From Thermicanus aegyptius DSM 12793 (GTDB taxonomy: Bacteria; Bacillota; Bacilli; Thermicanales; Thermicanaceae), in assembly GCF_000510645.1 (NCBI RefSeq), contig NZ_KI783301.1, positions 2,084,420 to 2,148,419 on the forward strand: a stretch of DNA of 64,000 bases. Reading direction: 5' to 3'. Under the pieces are notes generated by a model. The model was given only the letters and a program-made list of their open reading frames with translations. It ran no database searches and was not told the DNA's origin. Both the position numbers and the translations under genes were made by a program. Shown in pieces: positions 42,397 through 59,449 of this stretch (position 1 is its first letter; each line of letters opens with the position of its first letter).

Positions 42397-42876
42397 CTAC
42401 TCCCGATCCAGCGCCCGGTATTGGATCGCTTCCGCCACATGGTGGGGATGGATCATGTCGCTCTCCTCCAGGTCGGCGATGGTGCGCGCCACCTTCAGGA
42501 TGCGGGCATGGGCCCGGGCGGATAAGCCCATCTCCTCAAAGGCGTTCCGGAGGAGTCGCTCCCCTTCCCGATCCAGGCGAGCATATCGTTCGATCTCCCT
42601 TGCCCCCATCTGTGCGTTAAAAAGAATCTTCATCCCCCGATACCGTTCCCGTTGTATCTCTAAGGCCCTCATCACCCGTGCCCGTATCTCCCGGGAAGAT
42701 TCCCCTTCCTCCTTCTTCTCAAAGACTTCATAATGCACCCGTGGAACCTCCAAATGAATATCGATCCGATCCATGAGCGGTCCGGAGAGCCGCCCCCGAT
42801 AACGATGCACCTGGGTGGAACTGCAGGTACAGCTTCTTTCCCCATCCTCGAATCCGTAGAAACCGCACGGACAACC
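42397..42876 (-). pseudogene. comM: ComM/YifB (Mg-chelatase-like AAA+) C-terminal fragment
   Basis: The C-terminal third of ComM: CPCGFYGFEDGERSCTCSS, QVHRYRGRLSGPLMDRIDIH, and the C-terminal Mg-chelatase subdomain GLSARAHARILKVARTIADL. The N-terminal Lon-like domain and Walker motifs are missing. Family members read M-N-P-C-P-C-G at this point; here the frame leaves homology exactly at the first Cys and enters unrelated sequence shared with the mobile element. ComM is a helicase that promotes branch migration during natural transformation, so the insertion would impair transformation. Confidence 0.88.
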
Positions 42877-42880
42877 GTGC
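42865..42880. other. Element/comM junction with 6-base inverted repeat
   Basis: GCACGG-ACAA-CCGTGC lies exactly where comM homology ends and mobile DNA begins. Half of it belongs to the native comM sequence. It may be the crossover site of the tyrosine recombinase encoded 1.2 kb away, or chance. Confidence 0.45.
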
Positions 42881-42920
42881 ATGGAATAACTCAGATATTT
42901 TTGTAACCCGTGAGACAAGT

Positions 42921-43346
42921 TTGACTACAACGAAATGCGTTTTAAATGCCGATACACCCGGAAAAAGATTGCGAAAGGCAAGGCTTGAAAAGAACATGAC
43001 GCACCGCGAACTGTCTGATGCTACCGGATTGTCCGTCACAGCTATTAGTAATCTCGAAAGGGATAGATTTAAACCCACCATGCCGAATCTCCGTAAGCTA
43101 TCCACTGTATTAGGCGTGCCGATTTCCTATCTTGGGTGCTTTGAAACCCTGCCTGAAAATACGCTTGGTGAGCGGATCAGGAAAGCACGGTTGTATCACG
43201 GGTATTCCAAGAAAGAGTTTGCAGAGATCATAGGGGTGGATGTTAAGTCTATTCAATCTTGGGAAAAGGATTTGCGCATACCGATAGATGAGTATCTATC
43301 CAAAATCAGAGAATATTTTGTGATATTGGATCGGCCATTTCAATAG
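42921..43346 (+). CDS. XRE-family regulator with two HTH domains
   Basis: A 141-aa protein with two Cro/C1-type helix-turn-helix domains in tandem: LRKARLEKNMTHRELSDATG with TAISNLERDRFKPT, and IRKARLYHGYSKKEFAEIIG with KSIQSWEKDLRIP. It is the first gene inside the element next to the comM junction, a usual position for the control gene of an integrated element. TTG at 42921 is the apparent start, with no strong ribosome site. It converges with and overlaps the next gene by about 40 bases. Confidence 0.8.
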   Translation: MTTTKCVLNADTPGKRLRKARLEKNMTHRELSDATGLSVTAISNLERDRFKPTMPNLRKLSTVLGVPISYLGCFETLPENTLGERIRKARLYHGYSKKEFAEIIGVDVKSIQSWEKDLRIPIDEYLSKIREYFVILDRPFQ

Positions 43347-43527
43347 ATTTTTTATCCGCATCCCATCGAATATATCCTTTTTGTTGCAGGCTTTCCAACG
43401 CATTCAAAATTTTTTCCATACTTCTCCCTGTACGGTACTGTAGTTCTATAGCGGAGGGAAAACGGCCTTTAATCCGAAAGATATTTCGGATGACGATGAG
43501 TATCTTTCTTTCTGTATCGGTTAACAT
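43306..43527 (-). CDS. LexA-like winged-helix small protein
   Basis: A 73-aa protein made almost only of a winged-helix domain resembling the LexA DNA-binding domain (LTDTERKILIVIRNIFRIKG, then FPSAIELQYRTGRSMEKILNAL). Third gene of a leftward trio with spacings of 3 and about 33 bases; all are small and the other DNA-binding member is LexA-like too. Likely a regulator within the element; targets unknown. Confidence 0.6.
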   Translation of the reverse strand: MLTDTERKILIVIRNIFRIKGRFPSAIELQYRTGRSMEKILNALESLQQKGYIRWDADKKSIEMADPISQNIL

Positions 43528-43530
43528 TAT

Positions 43531-43767
43531 TTATTCCTCTTTCACAATGGAAATGATCCGATCCTGAAACAAAATCTGGGCAGAATATCCTTCCGTGGTG
43601 CTCACCTTCACAACATCCCCTACAAACAAAATTTGGGCGGCAACTTTCATCCCGACGAGCACGATTACTCGTCCCATTCCTTCTCCTTCAAACACCAGTA
43701 TTTCTCCGTTAATTTTGGTGCCGATCTTCCAGTTAAATGCTTTGGTTTCTCTTTCGTTTCCATACAT
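43531..43767 (-). CDS. Hypothetical small beta-rich protein
   Basis: A 78-aa protein that I do not recognise. The sequence alternates hydrophobic and polar residues (KINGEILVFEGEGMGRVIVL, then VGDVVKVSTTEGYSAQIL) as in a small beta barrel. ATG 43767 has GGAGGGGATTGTT before it. It sits between two LexA-like DNA-binding genes in one operon. Confidence 0.5.
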   Translation of the reverse strand: MYGNERETKAFNWKIGTKINGEILVFEGEGMGRVIVLVGMKVAAQILFVGDVVKVSTTEGYSAQILFQDRIISIVKEE

Positions 43768-43800
43768 AACAATCCCCTCCACTTCAGTATTCGTTAGATA

Positions 43801-44055
43801 CTATCCAATATCCTGCTTTATTTGGGACGGGGGTTTAATTATCGTAATTGTCCTCGGAAGAGAGGGTTCATATGTGATTATCCCCTTTTTCTTAAGCCTT
43901 TCTAGGTGCCCATGTACAGTGCTGGACGAACTCAACCCCACCATCTCCCCGATTTCCCGTACTGTTGGCGGGTAGTTATGTTTTTCGATGTACGTTTGGA
44001 TAGCTAGCAAGACTTCCTGCTGCTTAGCGGTTAAATTCTGTTTTGTTGTGCGCAT
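43801..44055 (-). CDS. LexA-type DNA-binding domain protein without protease domain
   Basis: An 84-aa protein matching only the N-terminal winged helix of LexA: LTAKQQEVLLAIQTYIEKHN, PPTVREIGEMVGLSSSSTVH and GHLERLKKKGIITY. Full LexA is about 200 aa with a self-cleaving Ser/Lys domain, absent here, so this repressor could not be inactivated by RecA. ATG 44055 follows AGGAGGGTTACC. Adjacent to the recombinase gene, it may hold the element silent. Confidence 0.78.
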   Translation of the reverse strand: MRTTKQNLTAKQQEVLLAIQTYIEKHNYPPTVREIGEMVGLSSSSTVHGHLERLKKKGIITYEPSLPRTITIIKPPSQIKQDIG

Positions 44056-44116
44056 GGTAACCCTCCTATGCAGAACGTTTGTTTTCATTATAGATTATTT
44101 TTTCACAAATTGCAAT

Positions 44117-45025
44117 CTACATCTTCTCCAACGCCCTCATCTGTTCTTCGTGTGAAGGATCGATGTAGATCGCCGTTGTCTGGATGTTCTCATGTCGTGC
44201 CAAACGCCGTATTGTCTCTATGTTCACACCTGCATTCGCCAGGTTCTTGCAAAAAGAGTGGCGGAAACGGTGTGGTGTGATCTTCTCCATGCCAGCGAGT
44301 CCGGCGTATTTGTTGAGCATAACCTGAATTCCCCTTGCCGTGAATTTCCCGGAGCGTTCCGATACAAAAAGATATGGAGAAGATCCCTTTGGATGAGTGG
44401 AACGGATTTTGAGCCACTTCTTCAAGTTTCTGCTGTATTTTTTAATCAGTACAACCGTCGCATACTGTCCTCCTTTTCCTTCCCGGATGGTAACAATAAT
44501 GTCTCCATCTATTTTCACATCCTCGACCTTCAAATCCACCACTTCGGATACCCGAAGGCCTGCATATAGCATGAGATCAATAATGGCTAGATTCCTAATC
44601 CTCTTCCATTCGTTCTTCTCTAATTCCACGTAACTGATGTAACGTTCTTGCTCCTCTTTTGTAAGCCATTTGGGCACCCCCTTCTCTCCCATCTGGTCCG
44701 CTAATCGTACCTTTTGAATCTTGATTCTTACCATGGGATTATCTTCAACAACTCCCGTTTCCACCAGATATGCAAAAAAGGTTTTCAGTGACGCTATGGC
44801 TTTATTAACCGTCGCTTTCTTTCGATTTAAGGTATGAGTTAAGTATGATAAATACTCTTTAACCGTGATCGGCTTGATCGAATCAATAGTTACCTCTCCC
44901 TCGGTATCCTTAATCCATACCATAAACTGTGTGAGAACCGTCTTGTATGCGGCAATGGTTTTTACGTCCTTTCCTTCGTTATGAGACCACTCAAGGAATT
45001 CTTTTACAATCGAATGGGTTTCCAT
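44117..45025 (-). CDS. Tyrosine recombinase / integrase
   Basis: A 302-aa XerC/D-like recombinase. The N-terminal SAM-like core-binding domain (residues 1-95) is followed by the catalytic domain with Arg in YAGLRVSEVVDLKVEDV, Lys in the REGKGGQYATV hairpin, His-x-x-Arg in TPHRFRHSFCKNLANAG, His in RLARHENIQTTAIYI and the nucleophile Tyr in that same segment. It lies 1.2 kb from the comM junction and is the probable integrase of the element. GGGAGGGATAGT precedes the ATG. Confidence 0.93.
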   Translation of the reverse strand: METHSIVKEFLEWSHNEGKDVKTIAAYKTVLTQFMVWIKDTEGEVTIDSIKPITVKEYLSYLTHTLNRKKATVNKAIASLKTFFAYLVETGVVEDNPMVRIKIQKVRLADQMGEKGVPKWLTKEEQERYISYVELEKNEWKRIRNLAIIDLMLYAGLRVSEVVDLKVEDVKIDGDIIVTIREGKGGQYATVVLIKKYSRNLKKWLKIRSTHPKGSSPYLFVSERSGKFTARGIQVMLNKYAGLAGMEKITPHRFRHSFCKNLANAGVNIETIRRLARHENIQTTAIYIDPSHEEQMRALEKM

Positions 45026-46560: not shown

Positions 46561-47313
46561 TTATATCGAAGCCTGGATCAGCAGAGCTTCGATCTTTTTC
46601 ATGGCGTCTTTTCCGTATGGTACGCGCTTGACTTTTACAAACTCCCTAAATGCCCGGCGGGCATAAAAAGTGTCCATACCGACTTCATATTTTCCGTATG
46701 GTGTATAAAGAATGTGCTTTTCAGTTGTGCCAACCAGAAGAAACGGTTCATCAAAGTCGATGAACTCGATATGGACATATCGATGATAATAGTCAGACTT
46801 CAAAATCTCCTTCAATTCATCGACATCAATCCCGCATTTTGCAGCTTTAAGAAGTTTTTGCCTCTTTTCTCTGTATTCAAGATAATTTTTTAACCGAAGA
46901 ACACGTTCTGGACCAATCATTAAGATCAGAACATCTTTTAGCCTCCATAAAAGATCAAGATCGATCGTTTTTCCCTTTATTTTTTTTCTTGTATTGGATC
47001 TTACCTGTGAACCTTTACTCCACCCGGCACTAGTGTACACAAGAACTTTCATGGCAACCACTTCTTTTCTGTGGATGAAGGAAATCTGTACGAATAATCC
47101 ATCTTTTTGATTACTATCGCATTTTCCATGGATCGACACGCGACCGTATGCTTTTTTTTTAATAATTTTTATCGCTTTCTGAACATGGACTAGTAGGTTT
47201 GGGCAAAGGTTTGTATTTCTCTGGTAGTTTGCTAAATTCTTTAATAGTTTTTCACCAAAATCTTCAAGTTGTGTCGTTTCCACAACGTGGTCTGTTGCTC
47301 TCAAAAGGCTCAT
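46561..47313 (-). CDS. Family 2 array protein, copy D (unrecognised)
   Basis: A 250-aa protein of the main paralogous family; I know no homologue. An N-terminal domain (residues about 15-100) runs LEDFGEKLLKNLANYQRNT, KAIKIIKKKAYGRVSIHGKC, VQISFIHRKEVVAMKV. Then a basic middle domain has LLWRLKDVLILMIGPERVLR, LEYREKRQKLLKAAKCGIDV. The C-terminal domain has EFIDFDEPFLLVG, LYTPYGKYE and the end RVPYGKDAMKKIEALLIQAS-I. The ATG at 47313 follows AAGGAGGATTTGGTA. First surviving gene of its transcription unit, behind a transposon-disrupted family 3 gene. Most similar to the copy at 51045-51830. Confidence 0.75.
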   Translation of the reverse strand: MSLLRATDHVVETTQLEDFGEKLLKNLANYQRNTNLCPNLLVHVQKAIKIIKKKAYGRVSIHGKCDSNQKDGLFVQISFIHRKEVVAMKVLVYTSAGWSKGSQVRSNTRKKIKGKTIDLDLLWRLKDVLILMIGPERVLRLKNYLEYREKRQKLLKAAKCGIDVDELKEILKSDYYHRYVHIEFIDFDEPFLLVGTTEKHILYTPYGKYEVGMDTFYARRAFREFVKVKRVPYGKDAMKKIEALLIQASI

Positions 47314-47331
47314 TACCAAATCCTCCTTTTT

Positions 47332-47381
47332 TTAAAGTTTTTCTAACATTTTTTTACTTCAATCTCCGCCTTTAAGTCCAT
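47332..47381 (-). pseudogene. Family 3 gene remnant (last 16 codons)
   Basis: Translation of the minus strand gives MDLKAEIEVKKMLEKL and stop, nearly identical to the end of the protein encoded at 51850-52473 (LIDLKAEIEAKKILEKL). The rest of the gene is replaced by the TnpB-type element next to it. The spacing to the following family 2 start is the same as in the intact unit. Confidence 0.8.
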
Positions 47382-47394
47382 CATGAATACTCCC

Positions 47395-47692
47395 GCCACT
47401 TATAGAAGTGGGGGTTTCAGGTGTGTCGAACGGGATTACCGAACGATTAACACCTGTGGAGTTGACACGTTGACGGACTGGTTACCGTCTAACCCCTCTA
47501 TCCCATTCGCGAAGGCATTTGGGACTACTTTTCGCATGATATTCGCCGAGCCATTCACATCTGCATTGATGATGATGTTTTGTGCGGAACGATACAGTCC
47601 TCGGCTGATCCGCCCCTTTTATGTTTTTAGAAAATGCGATTCATCCCCTTCTTATAGAGGAAGGGGTCTTCTCGCTAGAGATGATAAAAACC
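47395..47692 (-). mobile_element. Gutted IS200/IS605-type (TnpB) element
   Basis: On the minus strand the left part has a hairpin CCCCTTCCTCTATAAGAAGGGG. The right part encodes the last ~55 residues of a TnpB (GLYRSAQNIIINADVNGSAN, then FANGIEG) and ends with the hairpin CCCACTTCTATAAGTGGCGGG, as expected for a right end and its guide RNA scaffold. The catalytic body is deleted, leaving both ends plus a C-terminal tag, so it could only move in trans. It has replaced most of a family 3 gene. Confidence 0.72.
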
Positions 47693-47716
47693 CTTAAAAT
47701 GTGTTTTAAAAAAAAA

Positions 47717-47911
47717 CCACTTCTCTTAAAACAAAATTCGTTTTAAAAGAAATGGCTCTTATTTTTGAATTACTAATTCCTTTTGTTTTTCTTCTCCCTG
47801 TGTTAGGAGAAAAAAATAAAGAGAATTAACGTTCCTCTCCCCGGTGTGGGAAAAGAAATAAAAGAATAAATTATATATACTAATTCTACCTCATCTAATA
47901 TCTGTTTTCAA
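47717..47911 (-). promoter_or_regulatory. Array leader RNA element, copy a
   Basis: Minus strand order: promoter TTGAAA-N17-TAGAAT (47883-47911), stem-loop 1 (47832-47858, an 11-bp stem with TTTTCCC/GGGGAGAGG), stem-loop 2 (47786-47816, TTTCTCC/GGAGAAG), then a 16-bp intrinsic terminator (47717-47755: CCATTTCTTTTAAAAC with GTTTTAAGAGAAGTGG, then a T-run). The same layout recurs at 52616, 59232 and 62004. The genes behind it are D, C, B and A. Confidence 0.85.
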
Positions 47912-47938
47912 GCGAAATGTTTTTTTGAACGCTTCTTT

Positions 47939-48376
47939 TTATTTCCTCGTATTCCACTCAGTTAGGTTTGATTTATTCTTTTCTAAAATCCTGAGCATAT
48001 TGAACGGCTCTTTCAACAATGCCATCTCGCTGTTATGATTTATACTCTGCAAAACCCCGTTTTCATACCTTGAAAGGGTAGCATGACTCCATCCCAATGC
48101 TTTTGATAACTGTCGTTGGCTTAACCCGTACATTTCCCTAATCTGTTTTATTTCATCGGGAGTTAATAAATTCTTTCTCCTCCTATATTCGGAATACAAT
48201 CTGTCATAATTCCGTTCCTGCATTTTTCTGTCCGGAATGATTTTCTCACAGAGGTTGCACTTAAGATACTCAGCTTGAATAGTTATTTTCTCACCTCTTA
48301 CGTCATATGTTTTTTCTTTCAAAACTGGAACACATTCAGTGAAATTAAGACATTCCGGGCAAAATTTTTCTACCAT
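47939..48376 (-). CDS. MqsA-like zinc-finger / HTH protein
   Basis: A 145-aa protein: an N-terminal four-Cys zinc site (FCPECLNFTEC, then YLKCNLCEKIIP) as in MqsA/YgiT antitoxins, followed by a Cro/C1-type HTH (LTPDEIKQIREMYGLSQRQL, then GWSHATLSRYENG). MqsA-type proteins bind DNA and usually an adjacent toxin; no toxin gene is adjacent. It is the last gene of the transcription unit starting at 52790, so it may regulate the array itself. Weak ribosome binding site. Confidence 0.75.
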   Translation of the reverse strand: MVEKFCPECLNFTECVPVLKEKTYDVRGEKITIQAEYLKCNLCEKIIPDRKMQERNYDRLYSEYRRRKNLLTPDEIKQIREMYGLSQRQLSKALGWSHATLSRYENGVLQSINHNSEMALLKEPFNMLRILEKNKSNLTEWNTRK

Positions 48377-48394
48377 TTCGATCGCTCACATCTT

Positions 48395-49207
48395 TTAAAT
48401 CAAAGTCTGGATCATCAAAGCTTCGATCCTTTCCATTGCATCTTTTCCAGTAGGAACATGCCGTGCTCCGGTAAGATCCTTAAAAGCACCACCAGCACTA
48501 AAAGCATTTCCCTTATATTCTAATTTCCCAAATGGTGTATAAAGTAATTTTTTCCTTTTTTTCTTGGCAATCATCTCTTTGTCAATAATTTCTACTAAAA
48601 GCAAACAGGGGCTTTTAAAGTCTGAGGATTTTACGCCATCTTCTCTGAGGTCGCTTACATCAATGCCGCATTTTTTAGCTTTCCGCAAACTTTCCCTTAT
48701 CCGGCGGTGCAAAATATAATCCTTGATCTTTCGAAACCGCCTTTCTCCGTATATTCGTGACATATGATCGTTCCAAGGAAAAGTATTATCAATGTCCTTG
48801 GGTTGATAATCAAAAGGGAAAAAATTAAAGCCCCAAGGAAAATAATTAAATAAGAATTTTATATAATTTATTTCTTTAACAGAAATATTTTTACCTTCTC
48901 GAACCTTTTCTACAGGTTCTACAGTCAATAAAACATTCATAGATATTATATCTTTTCGGTGGATGAAATCAAATTCAGCGCACGTTCTTCGCTTTGCCCT
49001 TGCTGAATTACCATGTGCGCCTCTAACTCTCACTTTACGCGCACCTTCCTTTTGGATGATTTTCATGACTTCATCTACGTCATCAGTCGTAATTTCTAAT
49101 ATTTGTCGTTTTCGTTGTTCGCACTGAAATGCTTCCAGTTCATCAATTATTGCTTTCCGCACATCTTCAAGTTGAAAGCTCTTTGCCATGAAATCTTTCC
49201 ATGCCAT
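48395..49207 (-). CDS. Family 2 array protein, copy E (unrecognised)
   Basis: A 270-aa family member, one of the more divergent. N-terminal domain with MKIIQKEGARKVRVRGAHGN and AEFDFIHRKDIISMNVLL, middle with YILHRRIRESLRKAKKCGID, C-terminus with SPCLLLVEIIDKEMI, LLYTPFGKLEYKG, GARHVPTGKDAMERIEALMI and final QTLI (where others have QASI). ATG 49207 follows GGGGGAGATAAAG. Lies between the MqsA-like gene and copy F, all in one unit. Confidence 0.75.
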   Translation of the reverse strand: MAWKDFMAKSFQLEDVRKAIIDELEAFQCEQRKRQILEITTDDVDEVMKIIQKEGARKVRVRGAHGNSARAKRRTCAEFDFIHRKDIISMNVLLTVEPVEKVREGKNISVKEINYIKFLFNYFPWGFNFFPFDYQPKDIDNTFPWNDHMSRIYGERRFRKIKDYILHRRIRESLRKAKKCGIDVSDLREDGVKSSDFKSPCLLLVEIIDKEMIAKKKRKKLLYTPFGKLEYKGNAFSAGGAFKDLTGARHVPTGKDAMERIEALMIQTLI

Positions 49208-49255
49208 CTTTATCTCCCCCATTTTTTTAGTTTTTAGATTTTTAGTTTTTAGATT

Positions 49256-50068
49256 TTAAATCGAAGCTTGAATAAGCAGAGCTTCGATCTTTTTCATAGC
49301 ATCTTTTCCATAAGGAACTCGCCGCGCACCGGTGAGATCCCTAAATGCCGCACGCGCATCATAGATGCGGTTTTTACTCTCGAAATTTCCGAATGGTGTA
49401 TAAAGAATCAACCTTTCGGGAGGTCCATTGAAACCAATCAAAAGAAGACATGGTTCCTTAAAGTCTACAAACTTGATCCCGTCTAACAAGGGAATACCTT
49501 TAATTCTCCTTTTGATCTTTAAGGATTTTTTTAGTTCGCTTATGTCAATACCGGATTTTGCGGCTTTAAACAGCGTCTCTCTCTTCCATCTGAATATCAG
49601 ATAATCTCTTATTTTATTGGCGCGATTTGCACCCAACATATCCATCATCACGTCCCAGAAGTTCGAATCCCAGAAGTTCGAATTTTCGACAGTGAAGATA
49701 ATTTTTCTATTTAAATGGTATTGATTTCTGGAGACTCTTGTGGGCCATCCACCTTTGGAATTCAGAAATGCTTTAACTGCAAATCTTTCTTTTCGGCGAA
49801 CGAACCAGATATCAGCCCTCATCTTAATAAGATTTTGTCCGTTATCACATTTTCCGTAAATTGTTAAATGTCCGTTCTGGTTCTCTCGTATAATTTTAAT
49901 GATTTTGTTTATATCTTTATCCGTTATCGGGCAAACATTAAGTCCATCTTGATAAACGTTTAACTCTCGAATCAGTTTATCCCAGAATTCATTTAGTTGG
50001 GTGATTTTCCCTACGTACTTTATCTCCTCCGTTGTTTTGTTGGGGAATGGTACAGATTTAATAATCAT
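49256..50068 (-). CDS. Family 2 array protein, copy F (unrecognised)
   Basis: A 270-aa family member very similar to copy G: ITQLNEFWDKLIRELNVYQD, KIIKIIRENQNGHLTIYGKC, FVRRKERFAVKAFLNS, the two-residue signature ILYTPFGNFESKNRIYDARA, and the end GARRVPYGKDAMKKIEALLI. It shows a short internal duplication FWDSNFWD in the middle. AAAGGAGTTGAAAAG precedes the ATG. No catalytic motif recognised. Confidence 0.75.
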   Translation of the reverse strand: MIIKSVPFPNKTTEEIKYVGKITQLNEFWDKLIRELNVYQDGLNVCPITDKDINKIIKIIRENQNGHLTIYGKCDNGQNLIKMRADIWFVRRKERFAVKAFLNSKGGWPTRVSRNQYHLNRKIIFTVENSNFWDSNFWDVMMDMLGANRANKIRDYLIFRWKRETLFKAAKSGIDISELKKSLKIKRRIKGIPLLDGIKFVDFKEPCLLLIGFNGPPERLILYTPFGNFESKNRIYDARAAFRDLTGARRVPYGKDAMKKIEALLIQASI

Positions 50069-50149
50069 CTTTTCAACTCCTTTAAGATTCCACTAGGAGC
50101 TTTCGTAGATATTGATAAGCTCCTAGTTTCGTTTTTTTTATTTAATTTT

Positions 50150-50971
50150 TTAAATCGAAGCCTGGATCAGCAAAGCTTCGATCTTTTTTGTGGCATCTTT
50201 TCCACGCGGCACGCAACGGGCGCCTGTGATATGCCTAAATGCCACACGCGCATCATAGATGTGCTTTTTACTCTCGTAATTCCCAAATGGTGTATAGAGA
50301 ATCCATTTTTCGGTAGGCAGTTCAAAACCGATAAGAAGAAGACATGGTTCCTTGAAGTCGATAAACTTTATTACGTCTGATATGCGAACGTTGTCTTTAA
50401 TTCTCCTTTGGATCTTTAAGATTTTTTTTAATTCGCTTATGTCAATACCGGCTTTGGCTGCTTTAAAGAGCATCTCTCTTTTCTGCCTGAATAAAAGATA
50501 ATCGCTTATTTTGTTTATGCGTTTTACACCAAAGATTTTTTTCATCAAATATAAAAAGTCTTCATCATCTATGCTCCTAAATACATTGGATGTCAATAAA
50601 AGAGACAAATCAAAATGTTTATTTAAATATTTTTGACTTTGGGCAAATATTTCCGGCGATTTTATTTGGATAAATACTCGAACCGCAAATCTTTTTTTTC
50701 GGCGAATAAACCAGACTCCAACCCTAATCTTCCTAAGTTTTTCACAACCATTACTTTCACCATAAATAATTAAATGCCCATTCTGATTTTCCCGGATTAT
50801 TTCTATAATTTCTTTAACCTCTTTTTCCGTTATCCTGCAAACATCAGGTTTGTCTTGAAAAACGTTTATCTTTTGTATCAGCTCATCTCCGAACTCGTTG
50901 AGTTGAGATTCTTTTCCTACATATTCTATTTTCTCCCATGTTTTGTTAACAAATGCCTCTGATTTATTCAT
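50150..50971 (-). CDS. Family 2 array protein, copy G (unrecognised)
   Basis: A 273-aa family member, closest to copy F: KESQLNEFGDELIQKINVFQ, EIIRENQNGHLIIYGESNGC, WFIRRKKRFAVRVFI, YLLFRQKREMLFKAAKAGID, IKFIDFKEPCLLLIGFELP, GARCVPRGKDATKKIEALLI. The ATG at 50971 is supported by AAAGGAGTGAAAAA; the open frame to 51076 runs back into the end of the upstream gene and has no ribosome site. Confidence 0.75.
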   Translation of the reverse strand: MNKSEAFVNKTWEKIEYVGKESQLNEFGDELIQKINVFQDKPDVCRITEKEVKEIIEIIRENQNGHLIIYGESNGCEKLRKIRVGVWFIRRKKRFAVRVFIQIKSPEIFAQSQKYLNKHFDLSLLLTSNVFRSIDDEDFLYLMKKIFGVKRINKISDYLLFRQKREMLFKAAKAGIDISELKKILKIQRRIKDNVRISDVIKFIDFKEPCLLLIGFELPTEKWILYTPFGNYESKKHIYDARVAFRHITGARCVPRGKDATKKIEALLIQASI

Positions 50972-51044
50972 TTTTTCACTCCTTTTTTTTAAAAAAAATT
51001 CTATCAGGAGCTCCTGGAGATATCCAAGAGCCCTTACTTTTAAT

Positions 51045-51830
51045 TTAAATCGAAGCCTGAAGTAACAGGGCTTCAATTTTCTTCATGGCATCTTTTCCAT
51101 AAGGCACACGTTTGACATTGACTAACTCCCTAAACGCCTCTCGTGCATAGTGAATCTCCATACTGGCTTCGTATTTCCCGAAAGGAGTAAGAAGAATGTG
51201 CTTTTCGGGTGTGCCAACTAAAAGAAACGGTTCTTCAAAGTCGATAAATTCAATTCCAGATCTAATTTCGTCGTTAGATTCAATCTCAGGATGACACTTA
51301 TAAAAATAATCGGACTTCAAAACTTCTTTAAATTCGCCTACATCAATCCCACACTTAGATGCTTTAGTCAGTTTTTCTCTTTTTCTCCTGTATTCTAGAT
51401 AATTTTTTAATCTAACGAAACGTTCAGAATCAATCATCAAAATCAAAACATCTCTCAATTTCCAAATAAGATCCGGATCGATCGTTTTGGCCATTATTTT
51501 CTTTCTGGTACGCGATCTTACCAATGAACCTTCACTCCAACCGACTTCATTGTACCCGGAAACTTTTACAGCAACAATTCCTTTTCGGTGGATAAATCTA
51601 ATCTGAATAAATAGTTTGTCTTTTTGGTAATCTTTGCATTTACCAGTGATTGATATACGACCATACGATCTGTTTCGGATGATTTTAATTGCTTTTCGCA
51701 TATCAATTGACTGTATTTGGCATTGATATGTGTTTTTATAGTAAACTGCTAAATCTTTTAATATTTTTTCGCCTAAATCTTCTAACTCCGTTACTTTCAC
51801 AACGTGGTCTGTTTCTCTCAAACGGATCAT
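51045..51830 (-). CDS. Family 2 array protein, copy H (unrecognised)
   Basis: A 261-aa family member, closest to copy D: TELEDLGEKILKDLAVYYKN, KAIKIIRNRSYGRISITGKC, IQIRFIHRKGIVAVKVSGYN, LIWKLRDVLILMIDSERFVR, KASKCGIDVGEFKEVLKSDY, FIDFEEPFLLVGTPEKHILL and VPYGKDAMKKIEALLLQASI. GGAGGATTTGATA precedes the ATG at 51830. It follows a family 3 gene after 19 bases, exactly the order (family 3 then family 2) seen in the disrupted unit at 47.3 kb. Confidence 0.75.
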   Translation of the reverse strand: MIRLRETDHVVKVTELEDLGEKILKDLAVYYKNTYQCQIQSIDMRKAIKIIRNRSYGRISITGKCKDYQKDKLFIQIRFIHRKGIVAVKVSGYNEVGWSEGSLVRSRTRKKIMAKTIDPDLIWKLRDVLILMIDSERFVRLKNYLEYRRKREKLTKASKCGIDVGEFKEVLKSDYFYKCHPEIESNDEIRSGIEFIDFEEPFLLVGTPEKHILLTPFGKYEASMEIHYAREAFRELVNVKRVPYGKDAMKKIEALLLQASI

Positions 51831-51849
51831 TATCAAATCCTCCTTTTTT

Positions 51850-52473
51850 TTAAAGTTTTTCTAAAATTTTTTTCGCTTCAATTTCAGCTTTTAAGTCTAT
51901 CAAAAAAGAAATGATTCGGCGGAGCGTTTCATTTTTTTCTTCCGAATCTGCGAAATCATAAGAGTGGATATTATCACACAAGCGTTTCGCATGGAAGTAC
52001 ATATCCAAAGGGATGGGATCGGGGTATTCAGGCGTTTCGACTGTTCCTCCTTTATATCCATCGACCATTCCTTTGATGTGTCCGTCATTAACTATCCATT
52101 CCCCGAATACGGTTACCCCATATTCGAGTTGTGCAAGATTTCCTTCCCAAGAAACATCTTCTATCCGCATGAATATTTCGCCTTCTGTCGCAAAAGGTAT
52201 ATCTTTATATAGATTTGTTCTGAAAATTTGATATACCTTTCCTGTCCAACTACCGGTAAGAAGTTGCATTGATATTACATCTGCTGTTTTTATGGCTATT
52301 TTGCCCTGCCTGATCCACTCGCCATTATTTATACTGATGGCGATGTTTTTATGCTGAGGTCTCCATCCAGCTACAAATTCCCCATTTTGAAAACCTTCTA
52401 CTATCTTTTTGATCTTAAAATTTCTTTTGGGAAGATGAAGAATTAGTTCCAGGTTAGCTGCTTTGCCTCTCAT
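51850..52473 (-). CDS. Family 3 array protein, copy I (unrecognised)
   Basis: A 207-aa protein of a second unrecognised type; its paralogs are at 62302-62922 and the remnant at 47332. Blocks shared by the two full copies: an opening beta-rich segment ending KKIVEGFQNGEFVAGW, a IAISINNGEWIRQGKIAIKT / VISMQLLTGSWTGKV region, VSWEGNLAQLEYGVTVFGEW, then a helical end EETLRRII-type with AEAKKILEKL. Beta-rich front plus helical tail; no catalytic motif. First gene behind leader copy b, with AAGGAGGAATAAACA at its start. Confidence 0.72.
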   Translation of the reverse strand: MRGKAANLELILHLPKRNFKIKKIVEGFQNGEFVAGWRPQHKNIAISINNGEWIRQGKIAIKTADVISMQLLTGSWTGKVYQIFRTNLYKDIPFATEGEIFMRIEDVSWEGNLAQLEYGVTVFGEWIVNDGHIKGMVDGYKGGTVETPEYPDPIPLDMYFHAKRLCDNIHSYDFADSEEKNETLRRIISFLIDLKAEIEAKKILEKL

Positions 52474-52504
52474 TGTTTATTCCTCCTTTTTTTTTAAAAA
52501 AAAA

Positions 52505-52580
52505 TAAAATATTAAAGTTTAGGGCTGGGGAAGATGGCCAGCATCAGTTAGCGCGTATGATATTTTGGTATGCGCATACC
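52505..52580. repeat. Solo transposon-end-like sequence and GGTATGCGCATACC palindrome
   Basis: Plus strand TTTAGGGCTGGGGAAGATGG near 52515-52535 matches the right-end hairpin 3' half of the intact TnpB element (at 60410-60430). Next to it is GGTATGCGCATACC (52567-52580), a perfect 14-base palindrome whose 12-base core recurs at 62085-62096 in leader d. Confidence 0.5.
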
Positions 52581-52615
52581 ATCATCCTTAAAATATATTT
52601 TAAAAAATAAAAAAA

Positions 52616-52790
52616 CCACTCCTTTTAAAATAGAAACGTTTTAAAAGAAATGGCTTTTGTTTTTTCTTCTCCTTGTGTTAGGGGAAGAAAAGTGGGATTT
52701 AGCGATCTTCTCCCGGTTATAGGAGATGATTATTAGAAGAATTAAATAAACCGTTATTATTAATATACTTTACCGGACTTTTACCGTCAA
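52616..52790 (-). promoter_or_regulatory. Array leader RNA element, copy b
   Basis: Promoter TTGACG-N17-TATATT (52762-52790), stem-loop 1 (52706-52728, TCTCC/GGAGA), stem-loop 2 (52665-52689, TTCTTC/GAAGAA with inner CC/GG), then the terminator (52616-52653: CCATTTCTTTTAAAA with TTTTAAAAGGAGTGG, T-run). It drives family 3 copy I, family 2 copies H, G, F, E and the MqsA-like gene. Confidence 0.85.
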
Positions 52791-52813
52791 GTTTTTTTTT
52801 TAAGAAAACCTCT

Positions 52814-52875
52814 TGAGAAAAAAGAAATGCGACATTCCTCCCCAGCCTACTAAGACTAGAGATTTCTGCCGCATT
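52814..52875 (-). terminator. Terminator after copy J
   Basis: AATGCGGCA pairs with TGTCGCATT (one mismatch) around a long loop, followed on the minus strand by TTCTTTTTTCTC. It separates the copy J unit from leader b. Confidence 0.7.
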
Positions 52876-52898
52876 AAGATGATTATTAATTATATTAA

Positions 52899-53684
52899 TT
52901 ATAACGAAGCCTGAAGCAACAAGGCTTCAATTTTCTTTAGTGCATTTTTACCCGATGGCATACGGTTGATATTAACAAATTTTTTAAATGCCTCCCGAGC
53001 ACTGGTAGTATTACGGTTAACGTTATGCTTCCCGAAAGGGGTGTAAAGGATGTTATTTCTATAACCTCCCACCAAAAGAAACGGCTCTTCGAAGTTTATA
53101 AAAGTAATTTCTTTTTCTTCGGGAAAATAACCATCAAGAAAATATTTCTTTAGATTCTCTTTTAGATTCTCTTTTATTTCGCTAACATCAATTCCCCATT
53201 TGGCCGCTTTAAACAATTCCTCCCTCATTATACGATATGCAAGATATATTCTAAGCCTATGGAAGCGATCATAACCAAGCATCAATTCCACAACGTCTTT
53301 TAATTTGTAATTATAAAATAGATCCGTGTATATTTTATTTCCTATAATTTTCTTTCTTACAAAGAAAGTTTTTCGCGTGAGTATACTTCGCACGTAATCA
53401 ACATCTATGCGCACTTTCAATGCAACTTTCCCCTTCCTGTTGATAAAGTCGATCTTCATAAACAGAGTCTTTTTTTGATTAACATCACATTTGGGTTGGA
53501 CTGAAAAACGCCCGTATGCATTTCTACTGATGATTTCTATAGCTTTCTGTATATCCTCAGATGTGAATTTACAAATATCGGCATTTCTCTCGTGGTTTGA
53601 TAAATCTTTTAACATTTTTTTACCAAAATTATCTAGTTCGTTGACCGGAATAACTTTTTTGATTTTATTTACAAAACGAATCAT
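52899..53684 (-). CDS. Family 2 array protein, copy J (unrecognised)
   Basis: A 261-aa family member: VNELDNFGKKMLKDLSNHER, KAIEIISRNAYGRFSVQPKC, MKIDFINRKGKVALKVRIDV, LKDVVELMLGYDRFHRLRIY, ELFKAAKWGIDVSEIKENLK (a 12-base tandem duplication gives ENLKENLKK), FINFEEPFLLVGGYRNNILY and MPSGKNALKKIEALLLQASL. GAAAGGAGTATATTCT precedes the ATG. Last gene of the unit containing K, L and M. Confidence 0.75.
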   Translation of the reverse strand: MIRFVNKIKKVIPVNELDNFGKKMLKDLSNHERNADICKFTSEDIQKAIEIISRNAYGRFSVQPKCDVNQKKTLFMKIDFINRKGKVALKVRIDVDYVRSILTRKTFFVRKKIIGNKIYTDLFYNYKLKDVVELMLGYDRFHRLRIYLAYRIMREELFKAAKWGIDVSEIKENLKENLKKYFLDGYFPEEKEITFINFEEPFLLVGGYRNNILYTPFGKHNVNRNTTSAREAFKKFVNINRMPSGKNALKKIEALLLQASL

Positions 53685-53718
53685 AGAATATACTCCTTTC
53701 TTTTTTTATTTAAGTATA

Positions 53719-53766
53719 GGCACGTTCCGTCTGATACATCTTAAGATGTATAGAATGGAACGTGCC
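53719..53766. repeat. Two-part hairpin with 18-base palindrome
   Basis: GGCACGTTCC/GGAACGTGCC arms enclose the perfect palindrome ATACATCTTAAGATGTAT (53734-53751). It lies between copies K and J. On the minus strand no T-run follows, so an RNA processing or stability element, or a DNA cruciform, is more likely than a leftward terminator. Confidence 0.7.
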
Positions 53767-53791
53767 CATTTCATTTTTTTAGATCTTTTTT

Positions 53792-54532
53792 TTAGATCTT
53801 TGTCATCGTTAATATCGCGGCGATTTCTTCCGGTGTTTCAGGTATTTTTTCCCCGGTTGCATTCTTAAATATTTCTTCTATTTTTCTCTCCGCAGGAAAA
53901 ATCCATCCTTCAAACCGGAACGAACCATACGGCTTTGGGAGAATAAAATACATGACATATTTTCCGTTATTTATTTCTGATCCCCTTATTACCACTAGCG
54001 GACAGCCGCGACGGCATATGGCGGTTTCAATCAGGAAATCGTTACGATGGAACGGAAGAACGAATTCCCATTGTTTTAAAACATTGCGGATCTTTTCCCT
54101 AACTTTACGGAAAAAGATATATCGAATGACCCTTATTTGCCTTTTGAGCCCCACGAAGCACTCGTATAACGACATGATGTCGCAGTCATTATAGGAGATC
54201 AAAGGGAGTTCCTTGAATCTCCGGCGAGTGATCACGCCATGCGAACACACATTTTTTCGCGTTACTTTGACGCACACTGCCGTTTTCTCTTTCCGACGAA
54301 GGAAGGCGAACTGAACGAACGTTGAAACTGCACGGTATTTGTATGCGGTAGAAACCGCCCCGCCGATAAGTTCAATTTTTCCGCTTTGATGTTTTTTCAT
54401 TTTTTCGATGGCCCATTCGACATCTGCTTCGTCCAAAAGACGCACTCGGGCGCGCTTTTGGACTTGGTTTATGGAATCCATCAGGTCTGTTTTAATTTGG
54501 CTTAGATTATCGTATATGCTTTTATATTCCAT
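53792..54532 (-). CDS. Divergent family 2 relative, copy K (unrecognised)
   Basis: A 246-aa protein with the family 2 N-terminal pattern (DEADVEWAIEKMKKHQSGKI, then VQFAFLRRKEKTAVCVKVTR) and a middle RYIFFRKVREKIRNVLKQWE. The C-terminal half is replaced by a different one: LVVIRGSEINNGKYVMYFIL, PKPYGSFRFEGWIFPAERKI, EEIFKNATGEKIPETPEEIA and end ILTMTKI. It shares the layout (ATP-less, basic, cytoplasmic) but not the GKDAMKKIEALL tail. Confidence 0.65.
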   Translation of the reverse strand: MEYKSIYDNLSQIKTDLMDSINQVQKRARVRLLDEADVEWAIEKMKKHQSGKIELIGGAVSTAYKYRAVSTFVQFAFLRRKEKTAVCVKVTRKNVCSHGVITRRRFKELPLISYNDCDIMSLYECFVGLKRQIRVIRYIFFRKVREKIRNVLKQWEFVLPFHRNDFLIETAICRRGCPLVVIRGSEINNGKYVMYFILPKPYGSFRFEGWIFPAERKIEEIFKNATGEKIPETPEEIAAILTMTKI

Positions 54533-54556
54533 TTTTTTCTAATCCCCTTTCTTTTT

Positions 54557-55234
54557 TCACGACATCAAAGCCATGACCAAAGCCGCTTCGACAGCTTCTT
54601 CGTCATCAGAAAGATCCATGCCGGTTAAACTCAGGAAAAGTTTTTTTGGATCATCAACAAGCATCGACATTCCTATTTCTCCGCGTTTCGGAAGTTCATA
54701 AACTTTTCCCGAACGCAATACAACAATCGGTCGCAAATCATGCCATATTTCTTCGCTTTCTTTGTTGACTTTTTTTAAAATGATCGCGCACGCTTCAGAT
54801 ATCGAAATCTGGTCTCTCCGAAATTTCAACATTCCTTCGTATCCCATTTTTCGCACGTAATCTCTGTATTCTCTAAACTGAATATACAAATAAATTTTAA
54901 ACTCTCGTTCGTCATCGGTTACCAGCTTGTGATGTGACGTTTGTTTCATCACTATCGTTTTATATTTCTGGGGAACTGTTTTCGAAAAGATAGAGCAAAC
55001 ATATGAACCCCAACGCTTACGGTATTCAACTTTGATTTCGTTTTGATCAAGCGGTAAATATACACGCGCCGAATCATGGCGAAACAACCAACGAAGGCGC
55101 AAACGAAGACCTAAAGCCCGCAAAGAGTACGGCTTGGCATAGCCAATATTATAGGCCATCCTCATAATAGATTCGTTAATTTCCTTCTTACTCTGCATGT
55201 TTCGTAGATATGAACCATGACAATCTTTCGTCAT
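54557..55234 (-). CDS. Array-associated protein L (unrecognised)
   Basis: A 225-aa basic protein. No family recognised. Visible segments: ALGLRLRLRWLFRHDSARVY, YKTIVMKQTSHHKLVTDDER, YRDYVRKMGYEGMLKFRRDQ, and a C-terminal KKLFLSLTGMDLSDDEEAVE with end AALVMALMS that echoes the family 2 end (TG, then an acidic helix, then a short hydrophobic tail). ATG 55234 follows AAAAAGGAGGTAAAAAA. Confidence 0.65.
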   Translation of the reverse strand: MTKDCHGSYLRNMQSKKEINESIMRMAYNIGYAKPYSLRALGLRLRLRWLFRHDSARVYLPLDQNEIKVEYRKRWGSYVCSIFSKTVPQKYKTIVMKQTSHHKLVTDDEREFKIYLYIQFREYRDYVRKMGYEGMLKFRRDQISISEACAIILKKVNKESEEIWHDLRPIVVLRSGKVYELPKRGEIGMSMLVDDPKKLFLSLTGMDLSDDEEAVEAALVMALMS

Positions 55235-55271
55235 TTTTTTTACCTCCTTTTTCTTCTTTTTAAACAAGGTT

Positions 55272-55619
55272 CTAAATCGAGGCCTGAAGCAATAAGGCTT
55301 CGATTTTCTTCATTGCGTCTTTTCCACGAGGAATTCTCTTGGCCCCGGTGATTTCTTTAAAAATGCGTCTAGGGCTACAATCCAACTTATTTTTAAGTTC
55401 AAATACCGCAAATGGCGTATAAAAAAGACACTTATTCTGATATCTCATCCAATTGAATTGCAGTAAAAGAAAGCAGGGTTCTTCAAAAACTATATAATCT
55501 ATTTCATGGTATTTTTTTTCAAGACTGCTCACTTCGATCCCATGTTTGCGAGCCTTGTCTAACGTGTTTAAAACAAAAGAGTGTAGATAGAGAGTGTCAT
55601 CGCGATAGAAAAATTCCAC
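55272..55619 (-). CDS. Family 2 half-gene, copy M (C-terminal domain only)
   Basis: A 115-aa protein equal to the last third of family 2: LNTLDKARKHGIEVSSLEKK, YIVFEEPCFLLLQFNWMRYQ, LFYTPFAVFELKNKL, GAKRIPRGKDAMKKIEALLL and final QASI. The N-terminal and middle domains are absent, and the gene begins with a GTG after GGAGAAAGAA. Either a deletion product or evidence that the C-terminal domain folds and works alone. Confidence 0.65.
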   Translation of the reverse strand: MEFFYRDDTLYLHSFVLNTLDKARKHGIEVSSLEKKYHEIDYIVFEEPCFLLLQFNWMRYQNKCLFYTPFAVFELKNKLDCSPRRIFKEITGAKRIPRGKDAMKKIEALLLQASI

Positions 55620-55654
55620 TTCTTTCTCCGCCTTCCTCTCTTTAAGAAGAATAA

Positions 55655-55682
55655 AAGGACAGACCGAGGCCCGTCCTTTTTA
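55655..55682 (-). terminator. Terminator after the VWA gene
   Basis: AAAAGGAC pairs with GTCCTTTT, followed on the minus strand by TTATTCTTC. It overlaps the end of the VWA-protein coding sequence. Confidence 0.75.
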
Positions 55683-57008
55683 TTCAATCTTCACTTTTTT
55701 CGCCCATGCCGGTACATTCGCCCACACATCTTTATTAGGACGAATAATACCTACCACCATTGGGACGGGAAGGGGTTGATCCGGCCAAGGAGTTAAACCG
55801 TCGGTCAAGACAACAATTACGTCCGGTCTGGGCCGAAGCTTAGCCGCCGCTTTGGCCGATTCCCCCATGTCCGTTCCTCCTCCACCGCGGGCATCTTTCA
55901 ACGCGCGACGGAAAGCTGATTTACTGCTGTCCGTAATCTTATGCGCACCGTATGCCGCCGCGTCAGCATATACCAATGATAAATCCGCAAACTTAAGAAG
56001 CCCCTGGACTTCACTCAAAAGCTCCTCGAGCTCTCTGTCGGATACGCTACCGCTGGTATCTACTACAACCGCAACATTTGGACGGCGCCGGATCATCCCG
56101 GGAAGCAGGTATTCTGTCGTCCGGATTCGGCGGTTCGGTCGCTGTAAGGAATAATCCTCCGCACCGCTTTTCGTCGCACCCGAACGAATGAGATTTCGCA
56201 GCATGAGCCTCCAATCCACTTTCGGAGGCTCAAGGACAGTTTCTACCCACCGGATCAACCCGCCGGGCACGTCTCCACGCCCCTTTGCCGCTTCTGCAAT
56301 TGCGTGGGCAACCTCCCTTCGGATCACCTCAAGCCGTCCGGGGGTAAGTTTCCCTTCCGATTCGGCATTCTCCCAAGGGGCAGTGCGACCGGTTGCGGCG
56401 GAACCGCTCACCCCAGCCCCTGGTTTCGCCCCTCCAGTGCTGGCTGGGCTGGAAGATTGGTCTCCTTGGTCTACCGACTGACCTCCACCTTGCTGACTTC
56501 CACCTTGCCCCGAGGTGCCGCCAGATTGATTTCCGGATTGACCCCCCTCTTGTCCAGAGGTGCCGTTGGATTGATTTCCGCCATTACGCAAAATGGCGTT
56601 TTTCATAATCCATTCGGCGTACTCCTCTGCCAAGAGATTCTTCGGGAATCCGAAGGGCTCAGGAAAGAGGGCTTCCTTTCCGTCGATCTCAGGGAGTTGA
56701 AAACCATCTTCTCTGAGAATCTGGTTGATTTCCAGATCCCCCGCAATATTTGCCACTTCATGCGGGTATTCTTTGAGCCGTACGAAGTGGACCTGCAAAA
56801 GATGAAGGATTTCGTGGTAAAGTACCGCCGAAATCTCTTCTGTTGTCCATTTTTCGACGTTCTTAGAGTAATAAAGAACACCCGTTTCCGATACCGCCAT
56901 CGTTTCTACGGTTTCACTCTCTATAGGGAGGAGAGAGTATACTGCCGAAGCAAAGTACGGACGTTTTTTTAGCAGTCTAAAAATGGCTGCGTCTAATTTT
57001 AAATTCAT
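55680..57008 (-). CDS. Metallopeptidase-like / VWA-domain protein (DUF2201 type)
   Basis: A 442-aa protein. The N-terminal domain (residues about 1-150) has a HExxH zinc motif in YHEILHLLQVHFVR. A disordered linker (about 155-215) is rich in Gly, Gln and Ser. The C-terminal von Willebrand A domain (about 300-440) has the MIDAS loop VVVDTSGSVSDRELEELL, GGGGTDMGESAKAA and VVLTDGLTPWP. Such proteins commonly accompany a MoxR ATPase, as here three genes away, and the pair is proposed to remodel a protein or insert a metal. Its DNA is visibly richer in G+C than the family 2 genes beside it. Confidence 0.85.
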   Translation of the reverse strand: MNLKLDAAIFRLLKKRPYFASAVYSLLPIESETVETMAVSETGVLYYSKNVEKWTTEEISAVLYHEILHLLQVHFVRLKEYPHEVANIAGDLEINQILREDGFQLPEIDGKEALFPEPFGFPKNLLAEEYAEWIMKNAILRNGGNQSNGTSGQEGGQSGNQSGGTSGQGGSQQGGGQSVDQGDQSSSPASTGGAKPGAGVSGSAATGRTAPWENAESEGKLTPGRLEVIRREVAHAIAEAAKGRGDVPGGLIRWVETVLEPPKVDWRLMLRNLIRSGATKSGAEDYSLQRPNRRIRTTEYLLPGMIRRRPNVAVVVDTSGSVSDRELEELLSEVQGLLKFADLSLVYADAAAYGAHKITDSSKSAFRRALKDARGGGGTDMGESAKAAAKLRPRPDVIVVLTDGLTPWPDQPLPVPMVVGIIRPNKDVWANVPAWAKKVKIE

Positions 57009-57090
57009 TCTTATCCTCCTTTTTTGTGTATTCGGGTTTTATGATTGAAATAGACGAATCATTTTCCAGTTAAAATTCATAAATTTAATT

Positions 57091-57384
57091 TCACAAGTCG
57101 CCAGTTTCAATAAATACGTTCAATGCATTGACCAATTCCTTCGCTTGTTTTCTTGTCAAATGCATCCTTGTATAAAGCATTACATCGTCGGGGATGTCGT
57201 ATCGCACCCAACCAGTTCCACCTTGAGGTGTCTTGCTTGCCATAATCTTCGGGTCTGCATCATCGACACCTAACCAAATAGCATCTTCAGTCGCCAATGA
57301 TGATTTTTGCAAGGAGCATTTTACCCCGTACAAATCAGTAAAACTAATGATTGTGAATCCTCTGTTCGTTACGCTTTTTTCCAT
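57091..57384 (-). CDS. Conserved hypothetical protein of phage/plasmid type
   Basis: A 97-aa protein with the recurring phrase FTDLYGVKCSLQKSSLATED, IWLGVDDADPKIMA and RMHLTRKQAKELVNAL, ending FIETGDL. I recall this pattern from many phage and mobile-element genomes, where it has no assigned function; it is a recognition from memory, not a search. GGGAGATGTTTGTA precedes the ATG at 57384. Confidence 0.6.
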   Translation of the reverse strand: MEKSVTNRGFTIISFTDLYGVKCSLQKSSLATEDAIWLGVDDADPKIMASKTPQGGTGWVRYDIPDDVMLYTRMHLTRKQAKELVNALNVFIETGDL

Positions 57385-57490
57385 TACAAACATCTCCCTG
57401 CCACGTTTTATTAGATACCATATTCTGGTTATTATGGATGCTCGAATTTTCATTCCGACTCAATAATCGAAATAGCATATTTTTAAAATC

Positions 57491-57520
57491 AAAAGCCCCC
57501 GTTTTCGAGGGCTTTTTTTG
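57491..57520 (-). terminator. Terminator after the MoxR gene
   Basis: AAAAGCCCTCG pairs with CGGGGGCTTTT around a short A-rich loop; flanked by T/A runs in both directions. Confidence 0.8.
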
Positions 57521-58633: not shown

Positions 58634-58653
58634 TTAAATCCTCCTTTTTTTAT

Positions 58654-59175
58654 TTAAATTTTCATCATAATCTCCCTGGCTCGGGAGATTTTTTCAATAT
58701 TTTCTTTTAACCCGGACGTTACTCCGGGCTGTTTCCAATCCTCAAAATCACCATCCGAGACGGCTAAACGAATTCCCTCTTGCACCATCGCGGGGTATTC
58801 GTTTACCATCTCAGCAACAATCGGGACGAAATCCCCTAGCCAACCGGTGAAAATGATGTCCCAATTTAGCCTCTCATACATCGAGACGTGAATCACGCCT
58901 CCTGTACGAAAATAGCCGAAGTTTTCATCCTCCAAGTAACGGAGCCTGAAATCTTTGGCTCCGCTTAACCCTCTATGGACGGTGATTTTCCAGGGATTAA
59001 TCCTTCCCCGGTGAAGCTTTTCCCCTTCTTTTTTCCAATCCGGATAAGCCGCATCCATGATTGGAAATAGAAGAGTTACATCGGGGGATTTTCCCCCGAG
59101 CTTTTTGATAAGGAGTCTATCATTGTCAATAGAGACTCCAACAGACCCCTCTCCATAAAAAACTATTTTTTTCAT
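58654..59175 (-). CDS. Leader-c first gene, unrecognised protein Q
   Basis: About 173 aa, no family recognised: YGEGSVGVSIDNDRLLIKKL, TLLFPIMDAAYPDWKKEG, LSGAKDFRLRYLEDENFGYF, DIIFTGWLGDFVPIVAEMVN and a helical end SRAREIMMKI. The ATG at 59175 is not directly behind a ribosome site: AAGGAGG lies about 30 bases upstream with a small hairpin (GGCGC-TTCAA-GCGTCC) between, so the start could be upstream (the frame is open to 59238). It is directly behind leader c and in front of the MoxR gene. Confidence 0.55.
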   Translation of the reverse strand: MKKIVFYGEGSVGVSIDNDRLLIKKLGGKSPDVTLLFPIMDAAYPDWKKEGEKLHRGRINPWKITVHRGLSGAKDFRLRYLEDENFGYFRTGGVIHVSMYERLNWDIIFTGWLGDFVPIVAEMVNEYPAMVQEGIRLAVSDGDFEDWKQPGVTSGLKENIEKISRAREIMMKI

Positions 59176-59231
59176 TTTTTTGGGACGCTTGAAGCGCCAC
59201 TTCACCTCCTTTTTTTTTAAAAAAATAAAAA

Positions 59232-59428: not shown

Positions 59429-59449
59429 ACAAAAAAGAGCAAATAGCTC
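59429..59449 (-). terminator. Terminator after copy R
   Basis: GGGAGC-TATTT-GCTC on the minus strand followed by TTTTTTG; it sits directly upstream of leader c. Confidence 0.75.

Follow-up and report, generated by a model that had tools for sequence, protein, structure and literature searches.

A comM-specific large serine recombinase with a predicted attachment site inside its own reading frame in an ICE-like element of Thermicanus aegyptius

We analysed a 64,000-nucleotide window of Thermicanus aegyptius DSM 12793 (C1:2084420-2148419 of the complete genome of 3,657,623 bp), in which the gene comM is interrupted by the left end of a 130-kb element resembling integrative and conjugative elements (ICEs). 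Inspection of the minus strand showed that the comM homology ends at window position 42873, the first Cys codon of a Cys-Pro-Cys-Gly (CPCG) motif, in agreement with the preliminary description of this DNA. PF13335 was matched once in the whole genome, in this 3' part of comM. The same description had placed the missing half of comM, together with a repeat of the junction sequence, beyond the right edge of the window, and both were found there. The insert between the two halves measures 130,056 bp, and the ten-nucleotide core CGCACGGACA has exactly two copies in the 140-kb region, at C1:2127283 and C1:2257339, one per junction. Joining the flanks (5' part from C1:2257347-2258401) gave a 509-aa ComM with MNPCPCGFYG unbroken. 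The proposed comparison with relatives yielded a single uninterrupted ComM match in all five other genomes of the same order. The element is integrated in comM, broken at CPCG. Since the 5' half and the repeated core were found beyond the right edge, the gene array in the window lies, as supposed earlier, inside the integrated element. The GC content of the element is 0.430, as against 0.490 for window positions 1-42873.

The ends of the element hold a large serine recombinase (LSR) and its helix-turn-helix (HTH) part. The LSR contains, in order, PF00239 (E 1.2e-34), PF07508 (E 5.7e-17), and PF13408 (E 6e-11). It matches the integrase family phrog_95 (E 4.3e-118) and, in sequence comparison, the TP901-1 integrase and YokA of SPbeta. 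Among 398 genomes of the class, 18 (our own included) have an LSR match at E 1e-80 or better, and comM was found in 223. Seventeen of 18 other LSR loci of the class adjoin a comM half broken near residue 352-361. Because the LSR adjoins comM both in this genome and in its relatives, the integrating enzyme is the comM-specific LSR at the far right end of the element. The tyrosine recombinase carried within the element was rejected as the integrase; it lies away from the attachment site, and it is the LSR that adjoins comM. Insertion by this tyrosine recombinase, by a Tn7-like element (AbaR/Tn6022), or by a Tsy-type element is hardly credible. A tyrosine recombinase does lie near the left end, and Tn6022 and Tsy do insert in comM by other machinery (passages of PMC10293859). 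However, the comM-specific LSR adjoins comM in 17/18 class loci and in 42 of 97 further family members, a count from two collections that left out loci under 38% identity or 300 aa. Moreover, the same TG in CPCG is the exchange point in every first-set element described below. The comparison with AbaR islands drawn in the preliminary description thus holds for the target gene but not for the mechanism, which involves a large serine recombinase and not a Tn7-like transposon.

The left attachment site has comM-derived DNA on its left and an element arm on its right, with the crossover dinucleotide TG (minus strand) at 42872-42873. The palindrome GCACGGACAACCGTGC, noted earlier at the junction, is present at 42865 and forms the centre of this site, but only its inner half is element DNA. 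Rfam and tRNA scans of the 64-kb window gave no matches. Elements with both ends resolved were compared in two sets. The first set (class genomes and our own) contained 17 LSR genomes besides our own, five of which were not joined (G032, G079, G249, G328, and G346). For the second set, 36 genomes were searched for comM. Two of them (G402 and G405) were already in the first set, and eight further genomes were left out, as both ends were not resolved; of the 26 tried, 24 were joined, G404 having no site by pattern and G421 a broken LSR. The alignments place the exchange point of all 13 first-set elements at the TG in the codon for the first Cys of CPCG. The second-set sites and the final first-set join were located by patterns that require TG. 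Since these patterns presuppose the dinucleotide, we take the exchange point from the first-set alignments only.

With the right and left ends of the element connected at the core to mimic a circle, the frame of the LSR ran on into the HTH domains, giving a 684-aa open reading frame (ORF). Read from these joined ends, the attP of the free circular element is predicted to lie inside the reading frame of the LSR itself. The XRE gene that the preliminary description had listed as a gene of its own is instead the severed 3' end of the recombinase gene, standing 130 kb from its LSR in this genome (Table 1). An in-frame LSR-HTH join was obtained for 33 of the 37 elements. In the first set, 12/13 joins were in frame and ran 268-484 nt past the crossover; in the exception, G141, the frame stops 14 nt before the crossover. 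In the second set, 21/24 were in frame, with HTH module matches of E 8e-10 to 6.5e-60 (exceptions: G416, G424, and G432).

Table 1. Features of the comM locus and of the integrated element; positions are those of the window unless preceded by C1
Feature	Position	Strand	Evidence or remark
comM 3' part (first Cys of CPCG to end)	42397-42873	-	PF13335, E 5.4e-34
Left attachment site	42840-42905		core CGCACGGACA at 42864-42873, second copy only at C1:2257339-2257348
Severed LSR 3' end	42874-43346	+	two Cro/CI-type HTH domains (HTH_3, two stretches)
LSR, 538 aa	C1:2255758-2257374		directly inside right end of element; Resolvase, Recombinase, and zinc-ribbon domains
comM 5' part (PF13541 and PF01078)	C1:2257334-2258401	same as 3' part	domain matches
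Element, part in window	42874-64000		runs on to C1:2257346, 130 kb right of left junction
Small LexA-type DNA-binding domain protein, inside left end	43306-43527	-	LexA_DNA_bind, E 1e-6
LexA-type DNA-binding domain protein, inside left end	43801-44088	-	LexA_DNA_bind, E 1.9e-23
Tyrosine recombinase, carried within element	44117-45025	-	Phage_integrase, E 1.3e-34
Array of eight paralogous genes, element cargo	46561-60252	-	common C-terminal GKDAMKKIEALL-type motif

Natural counterparts of both forms were found in phages and prophages. The Paenibacillus phage Harrison has one annotated serine recombinase coding sequence of 695 aa that ends in an HTH pair, and the match in phage Paisley covers the same span as the Harrison LSR-HTH ORF. 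Two prophage records from IMG/VR (L176 and L177) follow Harrison with 99.9% identity for 5591 bp, up to the crossover, where the sequences part. Past this point, Harrison continues into the HTH domains, whereas the prophages continue into the CPCG codons of comM and reach a stop after about 19 residues. Being nearly identical to Harrison, these prophages probably come from Paenibacillus larvae. Six viral contigs also contain a contiguous LSR-HTH fusion (HTH E 5e-45 to 7e-57), so that with Harrison and Paisley eight records have one contiguous ORF; L155-L157 among the six look like near copies of each other. In six further viral records (G438, G440, G444, G463, G467, and G471), the HTH part and the LSR stand at opposite ends. 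The second HTH search covered 50 of 55 viral records and gave any HTH match in 16 of the 50, many records being cut at the prophage edge. Of the 97 family members, the 42 that adjoin comM include no fusion, and the 10 that are fused include none adjoining comM. In four of these 10, which are metagenome-assembled genome (MAG) contigs from Acidobacteria-type bacteria, the HTH matches are weak (E 1e-8 to 5e-5).

Some of these records call for separate remarks. The LSR-HTH fusions of the MAG contigs L103, L104, L110, and L117 are about 43% identical and have no comM beside the LSR, and their target may differ. By eye, the deposited Acetoanaerobium phage genome PP197248.1 (L073) seems to extend past its integrase into host comM. 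The 2.63-Mb Acetoanaerobium noterae record NZ_CP154629.1 (L074), which carries a comM-type LSR, is labelled a plasmid and looks like a chromosome. In G310, the two comM halves (C1:1469437 and 3196742) lie 1.7 Mb apart on opposite strands, although an in-frame join of the element ends is still obtained. We suspect a large inversion of the chromosome through the element.

An alternative is that the LSR and an XRE regulator are two ordinary genes that abut at attP by chance, so that the joined frame has no meaning. XRE regulators are indeed common beside integrases, and four elements lack an in-frame HTH module. By chance, however, about one third of the joins should be in frame, as against the 33 of 37 found; there are the eight contiguous ORFs, and most HTH parts have no start signal of their own. 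We regard this explanation as very unlikely and, given the Harrison ORF and the matching pair of prophages, as largely refuted. The candidate of an independent XRE gene was ruled out by the weak start signals together with the natural contiguous fusions.

The start signals were compared between the two parts of the gene. In the window, the HTH domains are preceded by a single in-frame start, a TTG at 42921, which lacks a Shine-Dalgarno match. Of the 33 fused elements, one has an in-frame start whose Shine-Dalgarno match reaches 5 or more, two reach 4 or more, and four have no start codon ahead of the HTH domains at all. By the same measure, the LSR starts scored in 11/17 testable cases and random windows inside LSRs in 23/740. 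Because start signals are nearly always missing, we infer that the HTH part remains largely silent as long as the element is integrated. Its ratio of nonsynonymous to synonymous polymorphism (pN/pS), 0.20-0.48 in eight pairs, indicates conservation as a protein. If this part is indeed hardly translated in the integrated element, selection on it would be expected in the free state. On the other side of the junction, the integrated LSR gains a tail of 2 to 94 comM-encoded residues (37 elements).

An AlphaFold2 model of the L155 fusion (28 rows) had a mean predicted local distance difference test score (pLDDT) of 75.9 and a predicted template modelling score (pTM) of 0.36. In the model, the LSR body extends to residue 542 and the two HTH domains occupy residues 582-705. 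Between them, residues 545-578 form an unstructured linker (pLDDT below 50), and the crossover maps to about residue 551 in it. What integration removes is the HTH part alone; the catalytic body of the LSR remains whole. By sequence, the HTH pair matches chains of SinR, P22 C2, and the 434 repressor.

The orientation of the element relative to comM varies. In 4/13 first-set and 7/24 second-set elements, the LSR adjoins the 3' half of comM, that is, in the reversed orientation. A tree of 38 LSRs (Harrison included) requires seven orientation changes, at least four of which are forced by starred branches. Read in the LSR sense, most of one orientation group has ACA(A) as the centre; the other has (T)TGT or a similar sequence. 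In both groups it is flanked by near inverted-repeat arms, and the frame is preserved. A palindromic core as the determinant of orientation was ruled out, as the dinucleotide is TG in all of the first-set elements.

Taken together, we consider it likely that a comM-specific LSR inserted the ICE-like element, that attP lies in its own frame, and that integration splits the gene. Strand exchange by the LSR would take place at the TG in the codon for the first Cys of CPCG. In the free circle, attP would fall in a disordered linker that connects the recombinase body to the two Cro/CI-type HTH domains. Integration would then split the gene, leaving the LSR with a few comM-encoded tail residues at one end and the HTH part stranded at the other, with hardly any translation start. 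In the free element, the tethered HTH pair may bind operators and regulate its recombinase or repressor region. Integration would end this regulation and leave the bare LSR, so that one gene would give two proteins, one before and one after.

Such a role of LSR-HTH as an integration-dependent regulatory switch is a tentative reading of the sequences. In Harrison, the LSR start follows closely on the end of one XRE gene, and a second XRE gene is divergent. Of 52 loci, seven have a same-strand XRE gene whose end lies in the 700 bp upstream of the LSR match, so this neighbourhood is not general. Two other roles of the HTH pair were weighed. As a tether, it would keep attP or a neighbouring site more fully occupied and promote synapsis, with no part in regulation. 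The attP arms, near-perfect inverted repeats beside the HTH codons, fit such a tether. LSRs, however, bind attP with their own domains, and members lacking the HTH domains exist, which makes this role unlikely. As a directionality latch, the full LSR-HTH would carry out attP x attB recombination, and loss of the HTH pair would block the reverse reaction unless a partner is present. Serine integrases are one-way even without any HTH domain, and the HTH-less relatives also sit in comM, so the HTH pair is not needed for integration there. On the other hand, the cut occurs exactly at integration, and engineered fusions of integrases with recombination directionality factors alter the direction of recombination (PMC5737554). 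A latch is doubtful, although less so than a tether.

For the family as a whole, we lean slightly towards a widespread clade of bacterial serine integrases in which integration acts as a protein-domain switch. The free form would be an integrase-HTH protein and the integrated form a bare integrase, and regulation or the direction of recombination would differ between them. Both phages and a conjugative-type element would have this arrangement. Several observations weigh against the split-gene mechanism behind it. Nineteen of the 97 members adjoin neither comM nor an HTH part, and in another 26 the sequence stops no more than 150 bp from the LSR. Four of the 37 resolved elements (G141, G416, G424, and G432) have no in-frame HTH, and the 33 in-frame joins are not independent, as relatives share ancestry. 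The pN/pS of the HTH part also exceeds that of the LSR (0.07-0.28).

The element carries a varied cargo, of which 43 of 147 ORFs (60 aa or more) were scanned with Pfam. Transfer-type genes encode VirB4-like and TraG/VirD4-like ATPases (P-loop_TraG/DUF87 and TraG-D_C). The NCBIfam VirB4-like CD1110 match (E 2.7e-42) lies below the curated cut-off, and plasmid homologues are 24-33% identical. Judged by sequence, on the joint presence of VirB4 and VirD4/TraG, the element is ICE-like. No classical relaxase was found among the ORFs scanned with Pfam, only Replic_Relax (PF13814). PHROGs matches for nine element proteins included no head or tail family, except for one weak terminase-like match (E 9e-6). 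The element also encodes an actin-like ParM, Tad-type pilus genes (T2SSE, two T2SSF, and RcpC), two DnaG-type primases, SSB, RecT, RecD2, RtcB, and a ClpX-like protein. A type ISP restriction enzyme and a second methyltransferase with a specificity subunit are present as well. An XRE pair and an M78 peptidase lie some 4-5 kb before the LSR, an arrangement that we take to resemble the ImmR/ImmA control of ICEBs1. The array member at 49256-50068 had no NCBIfam, PHROG, or plasmid match.

Further observations concern other genes of the element. At window 55680-58633, a DUF2201 metallopeptidase/VWA protein adjoins a MoxR-like AAA ATPase. Two TnpB-type proteins (OrfB_IS605 and Cas12f1-like TNB) and one RRXRR-domain protein, presumably IscB-type, are encoded at window 60446-61588, L020:9702-11174, and L018:3416-4516. 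Matches to the PADLOC candidates PDC-M30A/B, namely one GMT-wHTH and one DUF5131 protein, are encoded near the LSR at L020:7808-9772.

Both the target gene and the enzyme class have precedents. According to passages of Durrant et al. 2022 (PMC10083194), the Mg chelatase/ATP-dependent protease gene is the target of 12.4% of predicted site-specific integrases. Their LSRs share the target gene family and the enzyme class with our element; those passages mention neither an attP inside the LSR gene nor an HTH tail. Wolbachia sr1WO phages likewise use the Mg-chelatase gene as the attachment gene (passages of PMC9203015). They resemble the element in having a serine recombinase and HTH_XRE genes at the other end of the prophage. 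The closest forms described here, Harrison and Paisley, have LSRs 57% identical to ours with the HTH tail fused in one ORF, but they are 44-kb tailed phages and not a 130-kb ICE-like element.

The splitting of an integrase gene has been described in archaea, and self-splitting (suicidal) integrases were called exclusive to archaea in passages of a 2021 review (PMC8371274). In the archaeal SSV type, as in our element, the attachment site lies in the integrase gene, which is split on integration and whole when free. The SSV-type integrases, however, belong to the tyrosine class, and their catalytic part is detached and inactivated (PMC8371274, same passages), whereas the LSR is a serine enzyme that keeps its catalytic body intact and sheds a C-terminal HTH pair. 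Thus, the attachment site inside the integrase frame was found here, and the tyrosine enzyme and the catalytic split were not. In mycobacteriophages, attP lies inside a repressor gene (passages of PMC4557955, PMC9262239, PMC8092301, and PMC9934374). BPs-type integration-dependent immunity is similar in that integration alters the C-terminus of a regulator with attP inside its gene (passages of PMC4557955 and PMC9262239). The differences, according to those passages, are that BPs-type phages have a tyrosine integrase, that the gene containing attP encodes a repressor distinct from it, and that the tail removed serves as a degradation tag; here, attP would be inside the serine integrase gene. 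We found no report of an attP inside a serine integrase gene in open-licence PMC text, supplements being outside its scope. The comM target and the LSR enzyme class were already known, and the attP inside the LSR frame is apparently new.

For bacteria and serine recombinases, these sequences contradict the statement that self-splitting integrases occur in archaea only. If the proposed splitting is true, this would be the first self-splitting integrase outside the archaea and outside the tyrosine class. In annotation, XRE genes at the far end of such elements would have to be read as gene fragments, and LSRs taken from integrated copies for genome engineering would miss a natural C-terminal part. 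The finding also bears on how a serine integrase distinguishes the states before and after integration: the DNA itself would write the state of the element into the protein.

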